Source of the DNA: a virus
IMG/VR virus record: IMGVR_UViG_3300036715_001868
Coordinates: 1-33,913 of that record
Reading direction: 5' to 3' (one strand)
DNA length: 33,913 nucleotides
In this document: piece after piece, positions 3,696-26,894 of the stretch
Position numbering within the stretch: the stretch's first letter is position 1
Layout of the letters: every line of letters starts with the position of its first letter
The notes under the pieces: model-generated
What the model was told of the DNA's origin: nothing
What the model saw: the letters and a program-made list of their open reading frames with translations, nothing else
The model's database searches: none
Translations under genes and position numbers: made by a program

Positions 3696-3701
3696 ATTGT
3701 A

Positions 3702-3710
3702 ATAATATCA
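3702..3710 (-). promoter_or_regulatory. Extended -10 promoter (TGATATTAT) for leaderless protease mRNA
   Basis: On the minus strand TGA-TATTAT is followed by exactly 6 bases (tacaat) and then the ATG of the protease gene. The transcription start would fall on the A of ATG. No -35 box is convincing. The spacing repeats at 21201, 27366 and 32949, which raises confidence. Confidence 0.5.
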
Positions 3711-3735
3711 CGCTTTTTGTAAAGTGTCTGTTTAG

Positions 3736-3744
3736 TGTGGATAA
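3736..3744 (-). other. DnaA-box-like 9-mer (TTATCCACA)
   Basis: Perfect match to the classic DnaA box on the minus strand, in the short gap between the small membrane-protein gene and the protease gene. One such match can occur by chance in a genome this size, so a role in replication is not established. Confidence 0.3.
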
Positions 3745-3746
3745 TG

Positions 3747-12571: not shown

Positions 12572-13082
12572 TTGTTGTTGTTTCTACTTTACGTGCAGGT
12601 ACAGGTACTACCTCGTATGATACTGATGCAACGCCCTTATAGTCGTGCTCTACTGTCTGCTTTTCACTCCATTTTTCTACGAGTTGAAACCATAACTTTA
12701 CCTCTAGCATATTGCCCTTACGTATAGCAGTGTTGTATAAAGAAAACAAAACATTTTTGCTCAAGTTTTTAGCCCATAGCATTGCCTCGTCCATTCCATT
12801 TTGTGCACCTACTGTTTTATTCCAGTCACAAAGTGTGCCCTCGTCAACATTAAAACGTGCACCAAACTCCTTTTGAGTAGTTAAGTCTACAAGGTTTAAC
12901 ATTTCCTCATTCTCAATACCCATTGACATTGCAAACTCACGTGGGCTTGGTCGCTCTTTAGTTTTCTTATCTATCGGTGGAAACCTAAAAAATGCAGGTA
13001 TGCTACGCCACAAGCAATAAAGGTCATACTCGTATTTTTTCTTTGGCTCTATGGTGACTAAATTGGTGTTAATTGGTGGCAT
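12564..13082 (-). CDS. Terminase small subunit (putative)
   Basis: 172 aa. Residues about 45-95 contain a HTH-like segment (LTTQKEFGARFNVDEGTLCDWNK is the pattern, with 'TQKEFGARF' as first helix), followed by a helical part suited to oligomerisation (WAKNLSKNVLFSLYNTAI). The position just before terL, with 8 bases of overlap, supports TerS, which recognises viral DNA and starts packaging. Sequence alone is weak because TerS families diverge. An extended -10 box ends 10 bases before the ATG. Confidence 0.75.
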   Translation of the reverse strand: MPPINTNLVTIEPKKKYEYDLYCLWRSIPAFFRFPPIDKKTKERPSPREFAMSMGIENEEMLNLVDLTTQKEFGARFNVDEGTLCDWNKTVGAQNGMDEAMLWAKNLSKNVLFSLYNTAIRKGNMLEVKLWFQLVEKWSEKQTVEHDYKGVASVSYEVVPVPARKVETTTNG

Positions 13083-17639: not shown

Positions 17640-17664
17640 AGTGTTATGTGTTAAACATCAAGCC

Positions 17665-17773
17665 CCTAAACCACACTACTAAACTGTTTTGGAAATAACC
17701 AAACTAAAACAGTGATAGAAAATACTTGTGGGAGCAAGTCAGTAGTGTGGTTTAGAGGCACGATGCCTCTAAA
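17665..17773. other. Three-way-junction-like inverted-repeat element
   Basis: Outer arms CTAAACCACACTACT (17666-17680) and AGTAGTGTGGTTTAG (17741-17755) are a perfect 15-bp match. They enclose hairpin 1, ACTGTT...AACAGT (683-713) with an inner TTTGG [AAATAA] CCAAA, and hairpin 2, ACTTG-tgggag-CAAGT (724-739). A 10-bp hairpin TTTAGAGGCA-cga-TGCCTCTAAA (751-773) shares bases 751-755 with the outer stem, so the two exclude each other. There is no T-run. On the minus strand it is the leader of the superinfection gene. Hairpin 1 (plus strand) contains GGAAATAACCA, the exact string of the early-leader hairpins (minus strand). Confidence 0.7.
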
Positions 17774-17777
17774 TAAA

Positions 17778-18617
17778 TTAAAACGGTATATCGTCAGGGT
17801 CAGGTGCAGTGCCGTCGTCATAGTCAATGCTTGGTAGGTCGTCCATACCACCTGTAATAACACCCTCAGCCTTTACAGTATCACCAACCTTTGTTGGTAC
17901 TGCCTTTGCTTTATCATACTCAGTAAGTTTTGCGTGTATATCTCGCATAGCAACCGTCACCTTTTCTATTTCCTCAGGTATAAGTGGTCGCCCCTTTGAG
18001 AAGTTTGCAAAAAACTTTTTACCAAGTTTTGTTTGGTACGGTGTACCAGTCATTACGTTAGTCATTGTGTAAAAGTGTTCACCTTTACTCATACTACCAA
18101 TATAGTCATAGAATAACGTAGCGTTTTGCAACTTTTCTTGCATTGAGAGTGAGCCACCTTTAATAATTACCTTGTAGATAGTACCTGTTGCAATATCCAT
18201 TGCATACACTAACTGGTTAACTTTCATTTTTGGGTATAGTCCTGCATCACCATTGATGCTTGATGCCAATATACCAGTCTGTGTTGCACCACCATTATAG
18301 TTATAGATAGCCACATAATCGGTTTTGGTGTTATGTTCGTTTGTTTGGCGTACAACACCGTCTTGGGTCTTTTCTATCAACTGGCGACGTAATTTTAGCC
18401 AAACTAACTCAATTTTATTACCTAGTACGGCTTTCTCGTACACTTCCTTGGTAGTTCCAGTGAGTTCATCAGTTTCCTTTACCTTTGCACGTGTCTTATA
18501 TTTCACGTTAAAGATACCGTCGTTACCGTTTAAGCCTATCTCATCGTACACAGGTAGTGAGGTAGTCTTATAGGTTGTTTCACCACTCATAGATGCTAAA
18601 TCATTTTCGTTGTTCAT
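17778..18617 (-). CDS. Single-stranded-DNA-binding-like protein with SSB-type DDIPF tip
   Basis: 279 aa. The C-terminus is an acidic tail (SIDYDDGTAPDPDDIPF) ending in the hallmark SSB tip that recruits repair and replication proteins. The body is beta-rich (VYDEIGLNGNDGIFNVKYKT, VYAMDIATGTIYKVIIKGGS) and lacks an obvious classic OB sequence. In context (YqaJ exonuclease and coiled-coil protein upstream, nuclease genes downstream), a ssDNA-binding or annealing role in phage recombination or replication is reasonable. The next gene lies across the structured element. Confidence 0.65.
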   Translation of the reverse strand: MNNENDLASMSGETTYKTTSLPVYDEIGLNGNDGIFNVKYKTRAKVKETDELTGTTKEVYEKAVLGNKIELVWLKLRRQLIEKTQDGVVRQTNEHNTKTDYVAIYNYNGGATQTGILASSINGDAGLYPKMKVNQLVYAMDIATGTIYKVIIKGGSLSMQEKLQNATLFYDYIGSMSKGEHFYTMTNVMTGTPYQTKLGKKFFANFSKGRPLIPEEIEKVTVAMRDIHAKLTEYDKAKAVPTKVGDTVKAEGVITGGMDDLPSIDYDDGTAPDPDDIPF

Positions 18618-20747: not shown

Positions 20748-20756
20748 TTATCCACA
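20748..20756 (+). other. DnaA-box-like 9-mer in the control region
   Basis: TTATCCACA, a perfect match to the classic DnaA box, directly upstream of the -35 of promoter A. It could recruit host DnaA for replication or control of the promoter. A chance match is possible. Confidence 0.35.
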
Positions 20757-20777
20757 ACACACTTTAACTTTATTATG

Positions 20778-20783
20778 TATAAT
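20778..20783 (+). promoter_or_regulatory. Plus-strand TATAAT box in the control region
   Basis: A perfect TATAAT on the plus strand without a recognisable -35. A transcript would start near 20790 and meet the hairpin at 20856-20885 after about 100 bases. It runs divergently from promoter A. Confidence 0.35.
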
Positions 20784-20855
20784 ATAGTAAGACAGTACTT
20801 TAACAATCTATCCAAAACAGAGGACATTTCAAAAAAATTATCTTTTCAGCAACAG

Positions 20856-20885
20856 CCCCTATGCACAGTTATGCGTGTATAGGGG
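20856..20885 (+). terminator. Hairpin with T-rich tail (possible attenuator)
   Basis: CCCCTATGCAC / GTGTATAGGGG form an 11-bp stem (one G-U pair) with an 8-base loop, followed by tttgttgtttgtt. This is a plausible plus-strand intrinsic terminator with a broken T-run. It contains ATGCACAG, the half-site of the palindrome in the portal promoter. Confidence 0.5.
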
Positions 20886-20894
20886 TTTGTTGTT

Positions 20895-20903
20895 TGTTAC
20901 AAT
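20895..20903 (+). promoter_or_regulatory. Extended -10 box (TGTTACAAT) for the plus-strand gene
   Basis: TGT-TACAAT lies 10 bases after the hairpin and 33 bases before the ATG at 20937. No clear -35. Confidence 0.4.
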
Positions 20904-20936
20904 GATATAGGTAGTTACTTTTTACAAGGGGGTTTT

Positions 20937-21128
20937 ATGATAAAGACTGACAAAACGTTAGATAGGTTACAAGCCCTTGTAAAAGAGAGTTTGCAACCAA
21001 TTGTTATGGACGGTTACACGTGGTATGACATAACAAACGAGGGGTTAGAGGCTGAGGTTAAAATACTAAGAGTAGGTGGTGCTATTGCACACCACCCATT
21101 AGTAAATACCTTGATACGTTTCAACTGA
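20937..21128 (+). CDS. Plus-strand 63-aa protein of unknown function
   Basis: 63 aa (MIKTDKTLDRLQALVKESL, then QPIVMDGYTWYDITNEGLEA, with a hydrophobic end AIAHHPLVNTLIRFN). The only clear plus-strand gene besides two micro-ORFs. It is also the only one with a SD-like sequence: AAGGGGG four bases before the ATG. It lies in the divergent control region, so a regulatory role is tempting, but no HTH or other motif is seen. It is followed by a good terminator at 21171-21201. Confidence 0.6.
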   Translation: MIKTDKTLDRLQALVKESLQPIVMDGYTWYDITNEGLEAEVKILRVGGAIAHHPLVNTLIRFN

Positions 21129-21170
21129 GAAAGTGAGGTGGTCATATCTCCCGTACAGGGTTAAGTACAT

Positions 21171-21201
21171 AGGTAGGGGCATCAATGTCCCTACCTTTTT
21201 T
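21171..21201 (+). terminator. Intrinsic terminator after the plus-strand gene
   Basis: AGGTAGGG-gcatcaatgt-CCCTACCT, an 8-bp stem followed by TTTTTT (21196-21201, sharing one T with the stem). It lies 42 bases after the stop codon of the 63-aa gene. Confidence 0.8.
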
Positions 21202-21209
21202 GTTATACT
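21201..21209 (+). promoter_or_regulatory. Extended -10 promoter (TGTTATACT) for the 33-aa ORF
   Basis: TGT-TATACT begins at the last T of the preceding terminator and ends exactly 6 bases before the ATG at 21216, predicting a leaderless mRNA. Same spacing as at 3702, 27366 and 32949 on the minus strand. Confidence 0.5.
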
Positions 21210-21215
21210 TAAACT

Positions 21216-21317
21216 ATGTACTATAAGCAGGTAACTGCCTTGCGTAAAGTATATAAGTCTTTTAAGTTATGGCTTATAAAAATACAACAAGAGGACACTG
21301 ACAACGCTGAGTGGTAA
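21216..21317 (+). CDS. 33-aa plus-strand micro-ORF
   Basis: 33 aa (MYYKQVTALRKVYKSFKLW, then LIKIQQEDTDNAEW). The first half is basic and amphipathic, the end acidic. The case rests on the extended -10 with the same 6-base spacing to ATG used by clear genes, and on lying between two terminators. It has no recognisable family. Confidence 0.4.
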   Translation: MYYKQVTALRKVYKSFKLWLIKIQQEDTDNAEW

Positions 21318-21320
21318 AAT
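21312..21320 (+). promoter_or_regulatory. Possible extended -10 box (TGGTAAAAT) for the 17-aa ORF
   Basis: TGG-TAAAAT overlaps the stop of the 33-aa ORF and again ends exactly 6 bases before an ATG (21327). The hexamer is one mismatch from TATAAT. Confidence 0.25.
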
Positions 21321-21326
21321 GTGACT

Positions 21327-21380
21327 ATGCCACCTTATGAGGTGGTTACTCAATACCAGAGTAAGAAAAAGCACCACTAA
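21327..21380 (+). CDS. 17-aa plus-strand micro-ORF ending in the terminator
   Basis: 17 aa (MPPYEVVTQYQSKKKHH). Its stop lies in the loop of the terminator at 21366-21398. It includes a small CCACCT-tatg-AGGTGG hairpin at its start. Supported only by the repeated promoter-to-ATG spacing, so it may be fortuitous. Confidence 0.2.
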   Translation: MPPYEVVTQYQSKKKHH

Positions 21381-21398
21381 TACTTTGTGGTGCTTTTT
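21366..21398. terminator. Bidirectional intrinsic terminator
   Basis: AAAAAGCACCAC / GTGGTGCTTTTT, a 12-bp perfect stem with a 9-base loop. T-runs stand on both sides, so it ends plus-strand transcripts from the control region and minus-strand transcripts of the 22.8-21.4 kb early genes (the last gene stops at 21402). Confidence 0.9.
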
Positions 21399-21401
21399 CG
21401 T

Positions 21402-23353: not shown

Positions 23354-24058
23354 CTAGGTAAAAATAACCTCAGGCTCTTTGGCTTTATTTCGCTGTACAG
23401 CATCTTTAATCTTAACCCACTTATCTCTTAACTCAACTGGCGTGGTTACACTCGGCATATAGGGCAATTTTTGCTTTAAGATAGGTATTGCCTTAATGAC
23501 CTGAGTGACTAAATCAAGCCCATACTCAGAAATAAGAAAGTCGCACGCCTCACGTTGGGTTTTGTTACCATAAAAGCGTTTATTCTTTGGGTCAATGGTT
23601 TCCATTTCTTTAATTACTAAAGGTATAAGGGTAGCATTACCTGTGCAAGGCTCTGCCTTGCTAGTATTATCTTTATTATTATTACTTGTAGTATTATCCT
23701 CATCATTTTTAGTGATAGGGGTATCACTATTTTTAGTGATAGGGTCACCCTTTTTTTGTGTGGAGGGGTATGTACATAAACGTATATACCTAGCCTCAAC
23801 CTGTTTACTATTTTCTTTGTAAACTATCTCTGATGAAATAAAACCGTAGTCAATAAGTTGTGCTATCCAAAGCGATACTGTATTAACTGATACACCATAT
23901 AATTTTGCAAAATAACTATTACTCGCCCAACAAAAACCCTCTTTATTTGATAGGGCTGTTATCTCTGAGTAAAGCAATTTTGCATTTGGTTTTAGTCGCA
24001 CGTCATATCTTATCTCGGCAGGTATAATGCCATAGTAACTTGGGTTTTGTATTTGCAT
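23354..24058 (-). CDS. Replication initiator-like HTH protein (DnaD-like layout)
   Basis: 234 aa. Residues about 10-75 are a winged HTH of the type common in phage initiators: YGIIPAEIRYDVRLKPNAKL, LYSEITALSNKEGFCWASNS, YFAKLYGVSVNTVSLWIAQL. A Ser/Asn/Thr/Asp-rich linker (about 105-140) repeats PITKN (DPITKNS, TPITKND). The C-terminal 90 residues are helical, like the DnaD-type helicase-loading domain of Firmicutes phage proteins. The linker-coding DNA has three 8-mers at 12-bp steps (23710-23741), a likely origin. Confidence 0.75.
   Translation of the reverse strand: MQIQNPSYYGIIPAEIRYDVRLKPNAKLLYSEITALSNKEGFCWASNSYFAKLYGVSVNTVSLWIAQLIDYGFISSEIVYKENSKQVEARYIRLCTYPSTQKKGDPITKNSDTPITKNDEDNTTSNNNKDNTSKAEPCTGNATLIPLVIKEMETIDPKNKRFYGNKTQREACDFLISEYGLDLVTQVIKAIPILKQKLPYMPSVTTPVELRDKWVKIKDAVQRNKAKEPEVIFT
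23706..23744. repeat. Iteron-like alternating repeats inside the initiator gene (candidate replication origin)
   Basis: TAGTGATA (23710-23717), TATCACTA (23722-23729) and TAGTGATA (23734-23741) are perfect and mutually inverted, separated by GGGG and TTTT, a regular 12-bp step. The 15-mer TTTTTAGTGATAGGG occurs at 23706 and 23730. A location inside the initiator's linker is typical of phage origins (lambda O type). It also fits simple repetition of PITKN codons, so binding is not proved. Confidence 0.55.
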
Positions 24059-24059
24059 A

Positions 24060-24584
24060 TTAGTTGAGTAGTAATGTGTTTAATTTTCCTATAAGTTCCT
24101 GAAACGTCTGACTTTCACCACACAACTTTTTAACACCCTCAATGTAATTACGTGCTTGGTTACAAGTTTTATCATTTGCTATAAGCCTAAAGTCCTCACT
24201 CTCTAAGTCGTAACCTTTATTAAAGCCAAGTATTTTATTATAGTCAGGTAGTATTGAAATAATAGCATCGCCCTTAAATGCCCCACCACTGCATACAACT
24301 TGTGCCTTACGTTGAAAACCCCACATAACTTGTGGTAACTCATCTTTAGGTATTGTAATGTCCTGCCCTTTGTCATTGTATGCAAGTCGCACTGTATAGT
24401 AAAAAGGTTGCTCAGGTTTTTTATCAAAAATAATTGCAACCATTTCACTTTTCTTAATTCCGTTAATCTCAGTGTCACCACTAAAAGCATTATTATACTT
24501 AAACTCTGTAAGTTGCTCTGCTTGTTGTTGTGTAATATTGTAGTCCTTTCGTTCACCATTTCTCTCTACTGTTAGGGTAGCCAT
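24060..24584 (-). CDS. First gene of the 24.6 kb early unit, unknown function
   Basis: 174 aa, not recognised. Beta-rich first part (LTVERNGERKDYNITQQQAE; INGIKKSEMVAIIFDKKPEQ; FYYTVRLAYNDKGQDITIPK), a Gly/Cys stretch (AQVVCSGGAFKGDAIISIL) and a helical end (TCNQARNYIEGVKKLCGES). It is expressed behind a long structured leader (24611-24706) and 1 base before the initiator gene, so it is probably needed early, with replication. Confidence 0.6.
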   Translation of the reverse strand: MATLTVERNGERKDYNITQQQAEQLTEFKYNNAFSGDTEINGIKKSEMVAIIFDKKPEQPFYYTVRLAYNDKGQDITIPKDELPQVMWGFQRKAQVVCSGGAFKGDAIISILPDYNKILGFNKGYDLESEDFRLIANDKTCNQARNYIEGVKKLCGESQTFQELIGKLNTLLLN

Positions 24585-24610
24585 AAAATACTTTAATTAA
24601 AAACTATTAA

Positions 24611-24706
24611 AGCCGTATTGTTTTGTTGCACACTCTCTGTTATCTACTACGCCCCACTGGTAAGCAAGTAGTAGTAGATAACAAAGTACCAGTTAACCTT
24701 ACGGCT
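24611..24706 (-). ncRNA. Structured 5' leader with pseudoknot topology
   Basis: On the minus strand, 5' to 3': AGCCGTA (P1), ACTGGTA (S1), TGTTATCTACTAC (S2), loop with TACCAGT (S1'), GTAGTAGATAACA (S2'), TACGGCT (P1'). P1 7 bp, S1 7 bp and S2 13 bp are all perfect. The order S1-S2-S1'-S2' is an H-type pseudoknot inside P1. P1 begins about one base after the predicted transcription start (24707) and the element ends 26 bases before the ATG at 24584. A cis-regulatory leader (riboswitch or protein-binding) is likely; an unlisted ncRNA or DNA-level use is possible. Confidence 0.65.
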
Positions 24707-24713
24707 ACATAAC

Positions 24714-24719
24714 AGTATA
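24714..24719 (-). promoter_or_regulatory. -10 box (TATACT) for the structured leader
   Basis: Minus-strand TATACT, followed after 7 bases by the predicted start near 24707, right at the first base pair of P1. It is partly inside the palindrome TATAC-C-GTATA (24716-24726). No -35 fits, so an activator or a non-standard sigma factor may be needed. Confidence 0.45.
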
Positions 24720-24765
24720 CCGTATATATCTATAATGCCATTGTGGATAGTAAAATATTATAAAC

Positions 24766-24786
24766 AAAAAACACCGTTATACGGTG
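24766..24786 (-). terminator. Intrinsic terminator ending the late operon
   Basis: On the minus strand CACCGT-ata-ACGGTG followed by TTTTTT. A 6-bp perfect stem with a short loop and a good T-run, 30 bases after the stop codon of the acidic gene at 24816. It separates the late from the early unit. Confidence 0.85.
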
Positions 24787-24815
24787 CGATTTGTAATTGT
24801 AAACTTAATTGTCAA

Positions 24816-25606: not shown

Positions 25607-25789
25607 TTAATGTGATAGTACTATTGTTACTTGTGCTCGTAGACGTGCAAGTTTTGCATTGTCCTCGTCACTCATAGTGCTATTACTTAAAATAATATCA
25701 CACAAAGATGTCAAGCCAGTGTTTATATCCACAAGTGTCGTTGCGTTTTCTATTGATTTAATAATTTCTGGTATGGTCATATTAAGCAA
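25607..25789 (-). CDS. Small helical hypothetical protein
   Basis: 60 aa (MLNMTIPEIIKSIENATTLV, DINTGLTSLCDIILSNSTMS, DEDNAKLARLRAQVTIVL). It is all-helical, no membrane segment. Its 5' end overlaps the Gly-rich fibre gene by 8 bases and it stops 1 base before the HTH gene. An assembly helper of the fibre upstream is possible but unsupported. Confidence 0.5.
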   Translation of the reverse strand: MLNMTIPEIIKSIENATTLVDINTGLTSLCDIILSNSTMSDEDNAKLARLRAQVTIVLSH

Positions 25790-26894
25790 AGTAATTATTT
25801 TTTGCCACTAAAGAATAAGCACCTGCACCACCACCACCACCACCACCACCACCTGCACGTCCACCTAGCCCTGTCCCACCAGTTCCTGCACTACCTGCAT
25901 TTGTACCACCACCTGCTGTGCCGTTTGTCCCATTTGTTCCACCACCACCTGCACCACTAGCACCACCTGCACCATAGTAACCACCACCACCACCACCACC
26001 ACCACCACCCCAAGCATTATTAGCACCGTCTTGTGCTGTTGCTGACCCACCATTACCACCATTACCACCATTAGATGTAATAGTGCCTGAGTTTGCTGTA
26101 AGTATGTTATATAAAATAATACAATTACCTGCTGACCCACCACCACCACCACCACCACCTGCCTCTGTACCATTTGGGTTACTTGGGTTTGCAGGTGTAA
26201 TACCATTTTGTCCTGATGTATTTATTGTTCCTGTAAAATTAAGTGCACCACCACACTCAATTAAAAGTGCACCACCACCACGTCCACCTGCACCACCTAC
26301 TGATGTTAAAGCCCCTGAGCCACCACCTTTATTACCAAAACCACCACCACCACCACCTGACCCAGCCGTTATTGGCAAATAACGTCTTGATAATGTCATA
26401 GTATCTACTGGATATAAGAATGTATTACCTTGTTGTATTCCACCTGCACCTGATATACCATTAACACCTGCACTACCATTGCCACCTTTAATTCCTTTAT
26501 GTGTTGCAAGTACATCAACAGTACTATTACTTTCTGTACCGTCTGTAGCTGATGTCGCTGTATTAGCAATACCACCAGTACCACCAATTGCACCAAGTCC
26601 TCTAAGGTCAATACAAGGTGTAGTTGATGATGTTATTGTAACGTCACCCTGTGACCTTAAAACTATTACAGTACCATTTGCGTGTGGGTTTGTAAAAGTT
26701 AAACTTGCTGTACCAGTAATAGAAATAGACGTATAATTTTTTTCTAAAAAAGCAACACCTGCTAAATCTATATTTGTTGCACCACTAGAAATTGTAAGTG
26801 CACCGTCTACACCAGTACCACCAAACTGAGCAATACCATTTATATCTGATGCTAACACTTGGTCACCTGCAACCCATACTTTTCTTTTTGCCAT
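25782..26894 (-). CDS. Glycine-rich tail fibre or adhesin
   Basis: 370 aa. Residues 1-110 form a beta-rich base (AGDQVLASDINGIAQFGGTG; ANGTVIVLRSQGDVTITSST) similar to fibre N-termini. The remaining 250 residues are runs of Gly (GSGGGGGGFGNKGGGSG; NNAWGGGGGGGGGG; GRAGGGGGGGGGAGAY) separated by beta-loop segments (NFTGTINTSGQNG; NAWG). This resembles the polyglycine-II packing of phage S16-type adhesins, where variable loops at the tip bind the receptor. It lies 3 bases after the next fibre gene. Confidence 0.75.
   Translation of the reverse strand: MAKRKVWVAGDQVLASDINGIAQFGGTGVDGALTISSGATNIDLAGVAFLEKNYTSISITGTASLTFTNPHANGTVIVLRSQGDVTITSSTTPCIDLRGLGAIGGTGGIANTATSATDGTESNSTVDVLATHKGIKGGNGSAGVNGISGAGGIQQGNTFLYPVDTMTLSRRYLPITAGSGGGGGGFGNKGGGSGALTSVGGAGGRGGGALLIECGGALNFTGTINTSGQNGITPANPSNPNGTEAGGGGGGGGSAGNCIILYNILTANSGTITSNGGNGGNGGSATAQDGANNAWGGGGGGGGGGYYGAGGASGAGGGGTNGTNGTAGGGTNAGSAGTGGTGLGGRAGGGGGGGGGAGAYSLVAKNNYFA

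Follow-up and report, generated by a model that had tools for sequence, protein, structure and literature searches.

The SAM-II, preQ1-II, and fluoride riboswitches are leaders in which an H-type pseudoknot alternates with a state that blocks the start codon, and the leader of the replication gene repZ of IncB/IncI carries a pseudoknot controlled by antisense RNA. To our knowledge, structural pseudoknots have been described in few phage mRNA leaders other than those of T4-like phages. In the gene 32 operator of T4 and RB69, a 5′ pseudoknot acts as the nucleation site from which an SSB coats an initiation segment containing UUAAA (PMC535899). HK022 putL lies just downstream of PL, acts as RNA alone, and consists of two stem-loops of ~70 nt (PMC9378689).

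Here, we analyzed a predicted pseudoknotted leader in IMGVR_UViG_3300036715_001868, an IMG/VR record of 33.9 kb that was examined over its whole length (hereafter, the window). The record encodes siphovirus-type proteins (terminase, portal, capsid, tail tube, and tape measure), and the minus strand carries all of its main genes. A Shine-Dalgarno sequence is missing from almost all genes of the window. Querying with the replication initiator retrieved a sister phage, IMGVR_UViG_3300033067_000378, which runs colinear with almost all of the window at ~69% DNA identity. The arginine codon CGG accounts for 0/8516 codons in the long ORFs of the window and 3/7793 in the sister; TGA is a rare stop codon in the window.

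Anatomy of the leader

The leader lies within a 231-bp gap (24585–24815), past a terminator-like hairpin, and is read on the minus strand into the gene for a 174-aa protein. An earlier note on this DNA had described three perfect helices of 7, 7, and 13 bp that nest and cross, starting at about +1/+2 of a TATACT promoter and ending 26 bases before the ATG of the 174-aa gene, which is followed by the replication initiator. Helices, spacing, and gene order are all present as it described them. In transcription order, the features are:

24771–24787 (−): intrinsic-terminator-like hairpin GCACCGTATAACGGTGT followed by TTTTTG, closing the upstream transcription unit (sister: CGTCCTAAAGGGCGTTTTTT, same place)
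24742–24750 (−): DnaA-box-like element CTATCCACA, upstream of the leader promoter (sister: TTATCCCCA, at equal distance from the −10)
24714–24719 (−): −10-like TATACT (sister: TATAAT), with no good −35
24700–24706 (−): P1 5′ strand AGCCGTA, at ~+1/+2; alternative partner, the start codon region
24694–24699 (−): J1 AGGTTA, a single-stranded joiner, invariant in the sister comparison
24687–24693 (−): S1 5′ strand ACTGGTA (sister: AATTGTA)
24671–24686 (−): S2 5′ strand, with 13-bp core TGTTATCTACTAC at 24683–24671; 16 bp including one G-U
24663–24670 (−): L2 TACTTGCT, conserved part CTTRCT
24656–24662 (−): S1 3′ strand TACCAGT (sister: TACAATT), with two two-sided compensatory changes
24651–24655 (−): L3 GGGGC, conserved part GGG
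24635–24650 (−): S2 3′ strand, with 13-bp core GTAGTAGATAACA at 24650–24638
24611–24617 (−): P1 3′ strand TACGGCT, pairing with 24706–24700 over 7 bp
24591–24612 (−): A/U hairpin CTTTAAT-AGTTTTTA-ATTAAAG, its first bases overlapping the P1 3′ strand
24578–24589 (−): start codon region ATTTTATGGCTA; alternative-fold partner, 24707–24696 (TAGCCGTAAGGT), 12 bp
24060–24584 (−): gene for the 174-aa protein, family unassigned; first gene after the leader, ATG at 24584
23354–24058 (−): replication initiation protein gene, second gene (phrog_19658, E 3e-31; HTH_36, E 1e-16)

P1 thus encloses an H-type pseudoknot in which S1 (7 bp) crosses S2 (13 bp, or 16 with one G-U). The TATACT site scored only 9/12 in a promoter scan, and comparable sites are about equally common in shuffles; the putative promoter call rests mainly on position and on conservation in the sister phage.

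The earlier note had also cautioned that an L1 of 3 bases across a 13-bp stem is sterically tight. The problem is real: a 16-bp S2 abuts S1 and leaves no L1 at all, and the sister S2 (20 positions, one A-G mismatch) does likewise. Given this tightness (0–3 nt across S2), opening of the outer S2 pairs is probable, the alternative being that S1 doubles back along the S2 helix. L2 and L3 measure 8 and 5 nt with an S2 of 13–16 bp in the window and 11 and 9 nt with an S2 of 20 in the sister, and such growth with S2 length is what a real pseudoknot would require for S1 to double back along S2. The long S2 helix has high stability (−21 kcal/mol), the sister S1 is weak (−4.3 kcal/mol), and the A/U hairpin that could form after P1 is weak as well (about −2 kcal/mol).

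Pairing is kept through sequence change in a sister phage

The sister phage presents the identical order of terminator, −10, P1, S1, S2, P1, A/U hairpin, and ATG at comparable spacing, and its counterpart of the 174-aa protein is 72% identical. Its P1 is TAAAGCCGT/ACGGCTTTA; the P1 core GCCGT/ACGGC is invariant in both phages and carries zero covariation information. MAFFT does not take structure into account when aligning the leader interiors, so we used a script to count pairs across several registers. For S1, five pairs are unchanged, two are changed on both sides, and none is broken. S2, which is 4 bp longer in both arms in the sister, yields 8–10 two-sided changes when its arms are lined up from one end or the other. 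The register that maximizes identity leaves 11 pairs unchanged, 2 two-sided changes, and ~6 paired indels; lowering the gap cost further absorbs those two-sided changes into paired indels. A conservative count would be two two-sided changes in S1 and about two in S2 (identity-maximizing register), plus the paired change in S2 length, with the comparative support drawn from two sequences only (window and sister).

The single-stranded blocks J1 (AAGGTTA), L2 (CTTRCT), and L3 (GGG) are kept in both phages, and the S2–P1 joiner is not. The pseudoknot-type leader proposed from the window sequence is supported by compensatory change. Homologues that keep the sequence and lose the pairing had been named as the outcome that would speak against it, and the sister displays the opposite, with pairing kept through sequence change.

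The fold against shuffled sequences and known RNA families

Folding of the leader strand beats 200/200 of its own dinucleotide shuffles (z −5.4). The nested 7/7/12-bp architecture appeared in 0/500 dinucleotide shuffles of the whole window, both strands included, which bears out the earlier expectation that a chance origin is unlikely. A looser descriptor (S2 score ≥12, S1 ≥7, and P1 ≥7) was matched in 1/150 window shuffles and 0/150 sister-genome shuffles; in each real genome it finds one element, at the orthologous place. S2-like hairpins alone occur several times per shuffled genome. We consider it very probable that the leader fold is under selection. These comparisons provide good evidence for a selected RNA structure, as judged from sequence, and that evidence does not extend to function.

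As the earlier note had anticipated, the leader belongs to no known riboswitch class in Rfam 15. Neither the window nor the sister contains a match at the gathering cut-off, which excludes a known RNA family, and the best E-value matches at the leader locus are chance matches, all far below the cut-off. HDV-like, hammerhead, and pistol ribozymes are likewise without an Rfam match. Judged by inspection against the HDV-like core (P3, P1.1, P4, and a catalytic C), the 8-nt L2 and 5-nt L3 are too small for P3/P4. An attenuator or terminator within the leader was rejected, the hairpin past P1 being very weak and nearly all A/U, as was a leader peptide, since inspection of the leader revealed no sensible ORF.

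No third homologue of the leader was found in IMG/VR, 84,980 genomes, or among named phages, the latter giving neither a DNA nor a protein match to the leader gene. Queries with the 174-aa protein, a 118-aa neighbor, a tail gene, the replication initiator, and two gapped DNA patterns recovered the sister only. Fourteen other matches to the gapped DNA patterns are without promoter or pseudoknot and resemble coding sequence, and the structure descriptor returned nothing comparable from further related phage records. We conclude that this is a real structured RNA leader, previously uncatalogued and seen in a narrow phage group.

The start region and an alternative fold

Of 35 orthologous start regions compared between the phages, only one is better conserved than the 34 bases that precede the ATG of the 174-aa gene (30/34 identical), a pattern that would tie the leader element to translation start. 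This pre-ATG segment, GGCUUUAAUAGUUUUUAAUUAAAGUAUUUUAUG, is A/U-rich and contains one UUAAA. The P1 3′ strand and the A/U hairpin (in its 5′ arm) have five bases in common in the sister and two in the window, so P1 and this hairpin are partly mutually exclusive.

The P1 5′ strand GCCGUAAGG can pair alternatively with the start codon region UUUUAUGGC, forming 12 bp in the window and 9 bp in the sister, G-U pairs included. Computed without counting the pseudoknot, the P1 state and the start-codon-paired state have energies of −50.3 versus −46.8 kcal/mol in the window and −41.6 versus −42.2 kcal/mol in the sister. When all start regions of each phage are compared for this helix, the 174-aa gene comes out 1st of 57 and 2nd of 49, ranks that are not independent because the phages share the paired sequences through common descent. 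Its sequence is invariant between the phages, with no covariation, and the candidate start-codon pairing is best regarded as a lead rather than a result. This pairing, the A/U hairpin that overlaps P1, and the sister phage all go beyond what the earlier note described.

The 174-aa protein has no above-threshold match in Pfam, PHROG, NCBIfam, or PDB, and no RNA- or DNA-binding domain was recognized in it. Family searches matched it to neither a known enzyme nor a known transporter, and its AlphaFold model is poor (pLDDT 56).

Other features of the window

The DnaA-box-like sequence (T/C)TATCC(A/C)CA recurs at matching relative places in both phages, at 24742–24750 (−), 3736–3744 (−), and 20748–20756 (+) in the window and at 12683 (−), 25361 (−), and 8133 (+) in the sister (G001 numbering). 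In both phages, one copy precedes the leader promoter, another precedes the strongly conserved promoter-like region of a 368-aa head protease gene, and a third stands at the start of an exonuclease operon. They may be sites for DnaA or a promoter element that the phages share. Conservation of upstream regions between the phages peaks (32/34) at 3696–3745 (−), before the head protease gene, which is likely a late promoter region.

A long non-coding gap at 20761–21401 holds a terminator-like inverted repeat (21365–21399) and a conserved block, GACCACCTCACTTTCTNAGTT; the counterpart gap in the sister (L002 6873–7880) holds, by inspection, an apparent gene for an HNH endonuclease, encoded on the other strand. 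A 25-nt inverted repeat (17656–17680 / 17741–17765, 88% complementary, 60 nt apart) sits in the 319-bp gap between a 279-aa gene (17778–18617) and a 155-aa YopX-like gene. Preceding the leader region in transcription order, a 370-aa protein (25782–26894, −) contains long glycine runs (CCACCACCACC tracts), and family searches gave it no family.

Role of the leader

The most likely role for the leader, with a probability of roughly 0.45, is to act in cis on the 174-aa gene as an operator or switch of translation. Transcription would start at P1, and the RNA would fold into P1 and the S1/S2 pseudoknot with the A/U-rich start region left free. A bound factor or a folding change would then shift the RNA to a state with a blocked initiation region. 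Candidate factors are the 174-aa protein itself or another phage or host protein, with a small molecule less likely. The earlier note had named control by a ligand, a protein, or the phage, or a processed ncRNA, as possibilities. The block could arise from a protein that coats the A/U-rich segment cooperatively, in the style of T4 gene 32, or from pairing of the P1 5′ strand at the start codon. Consistent with an operator are the order shared by two phages, the compensatory changes, the conserved loops, the conservation before the ATG, the near-isoenergetic states, and the gene 32 precedent. Against it stand the limit of two homologues, the invariance of P1 and of the alternative helix, a 174-aa protein with no recognized RNA- or DNA-binding domain and a poor fold model, the weak sister S1, and the tight L1.

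By anatomy, the gene 32 operator of T4 and RB69 appears to be the closest precedent. Both leaders precede an early, replication-linked phage gene and have a 5′-terminal pseudoknot followed by an A/U-rich segment that reaches the start codon, and in both the fold is kept despite sequence divergence between related phages. At our locus, a 5′-terminal pseudoknot upstream of the initiation region is predicted and preserved in two phages, and a UUAAA-type segment lies between it and the start codon. In contrast, the T4 pseudoknot spans ~28 nt and has no outer P1, gp32 is a known SSB whereas the 174-aa protein has no recognized domain, and the window leader is without a Shine-Dalgarno sequence. We liken the leader to the gene 32 type but do not file it there because it is larger, has an outer P1, and precedes a protein that is not a demonstrable SSB. 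IncB/IncI repZ also places a pseudoknot in a replication-gene leader, but control there is by antisense RNA, and the window has no convincing opposing promoter (weak sites only).

Three main alternatives and one remote one bear on the same evidence. The leader could simply protect a long-lived early mRNA, with P1 tying up the 5′ end and the pseudoknot stopping 5′ nucleases without any switch. The predicted 5′ terminus does fall at the start of P1 in both phages, and the stable S2 is free to drift in sequence; plain stability, however, needs neither the crossing S1, nor conserved loop motifs, nor a conserved A/U segment up to the ATG, and we regard this account as doubtful. The conservation up to the ATG also weakens a put-like antitermination or anti-pausing role, in which the nascent leader would bind host RNA polymerase so that early-region terminators are read through. 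The leader does lie at +1 of the apparent first early promoter, directly past a terminator, and the early region holds a terminator-like hairpin (21399–21365) with one at the same place in the sister. HK022 putL and putR are likewise structured RNAs just downstream of early phage promoters, putL being active as RNA alone (PMC9378689). Yet put comprises two adjacent stem-loops in ~70 nt, present in two copies and with no pseudoknot, and would not need strong conservation up to a start codon, whereas the window has a single copy of one pseudoknotted hairpin closed by P1. A weak candidate promoter may also serve the downstream unit. Such a role is unlikely.

A metabolite-binding riboswitch of a new class would account for conserved single-stranded blocks within a variable helical frame and for two states of nearly equal energy, in one of which the start codon is paired. 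Even so, it is quite improbable: a riboswitch-type core shared across many lineages is not what we found, the collections searched having yielded one relative, and the controlled gene encodes no known enzyme or transporter. Unlike SAM-II, preQ1-II, and fluoride riboswitches, the leader has no sequence or covariance-model match and occurs in two phages only. Least probable, and very unlikely, is that the element is a product of chance or a DNA-level inverted repeat, such as a binding site or origin, rather than RNA. Short inverted repeats are common, S2-like hairpins among them, and a DnaA-box-like element is nearby, but the nested architecture is missing from the strict shuffles, is kept through compensatory changes in the sister, and is placed at +1. 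The sole non-Watson-Crick S2 pair in the window is a G-U on the minus strand; the sister also has a G-U, plus one A-G.

Returning to the operator reading, a more specific and speculative version is a pseudoknot switch of a new class. Here, the 5′ strand would either form P1, together with the pseudoknot, or pair at the start codon, and the leader would sense a factor from phage or host to time the replication operon in an uncultured host without Shine-Dalgarno use. The leader is compact and begins at +1, and a diverged homologue is in hand for compensatory comparison. By position, it would control the replication operon of a phage in which almost no gene has a Shine-Dalgarno site. If the switch interpretation holds, the leader would place the early-to-replication step under RNA control and offer a regulator that is both small and portable.
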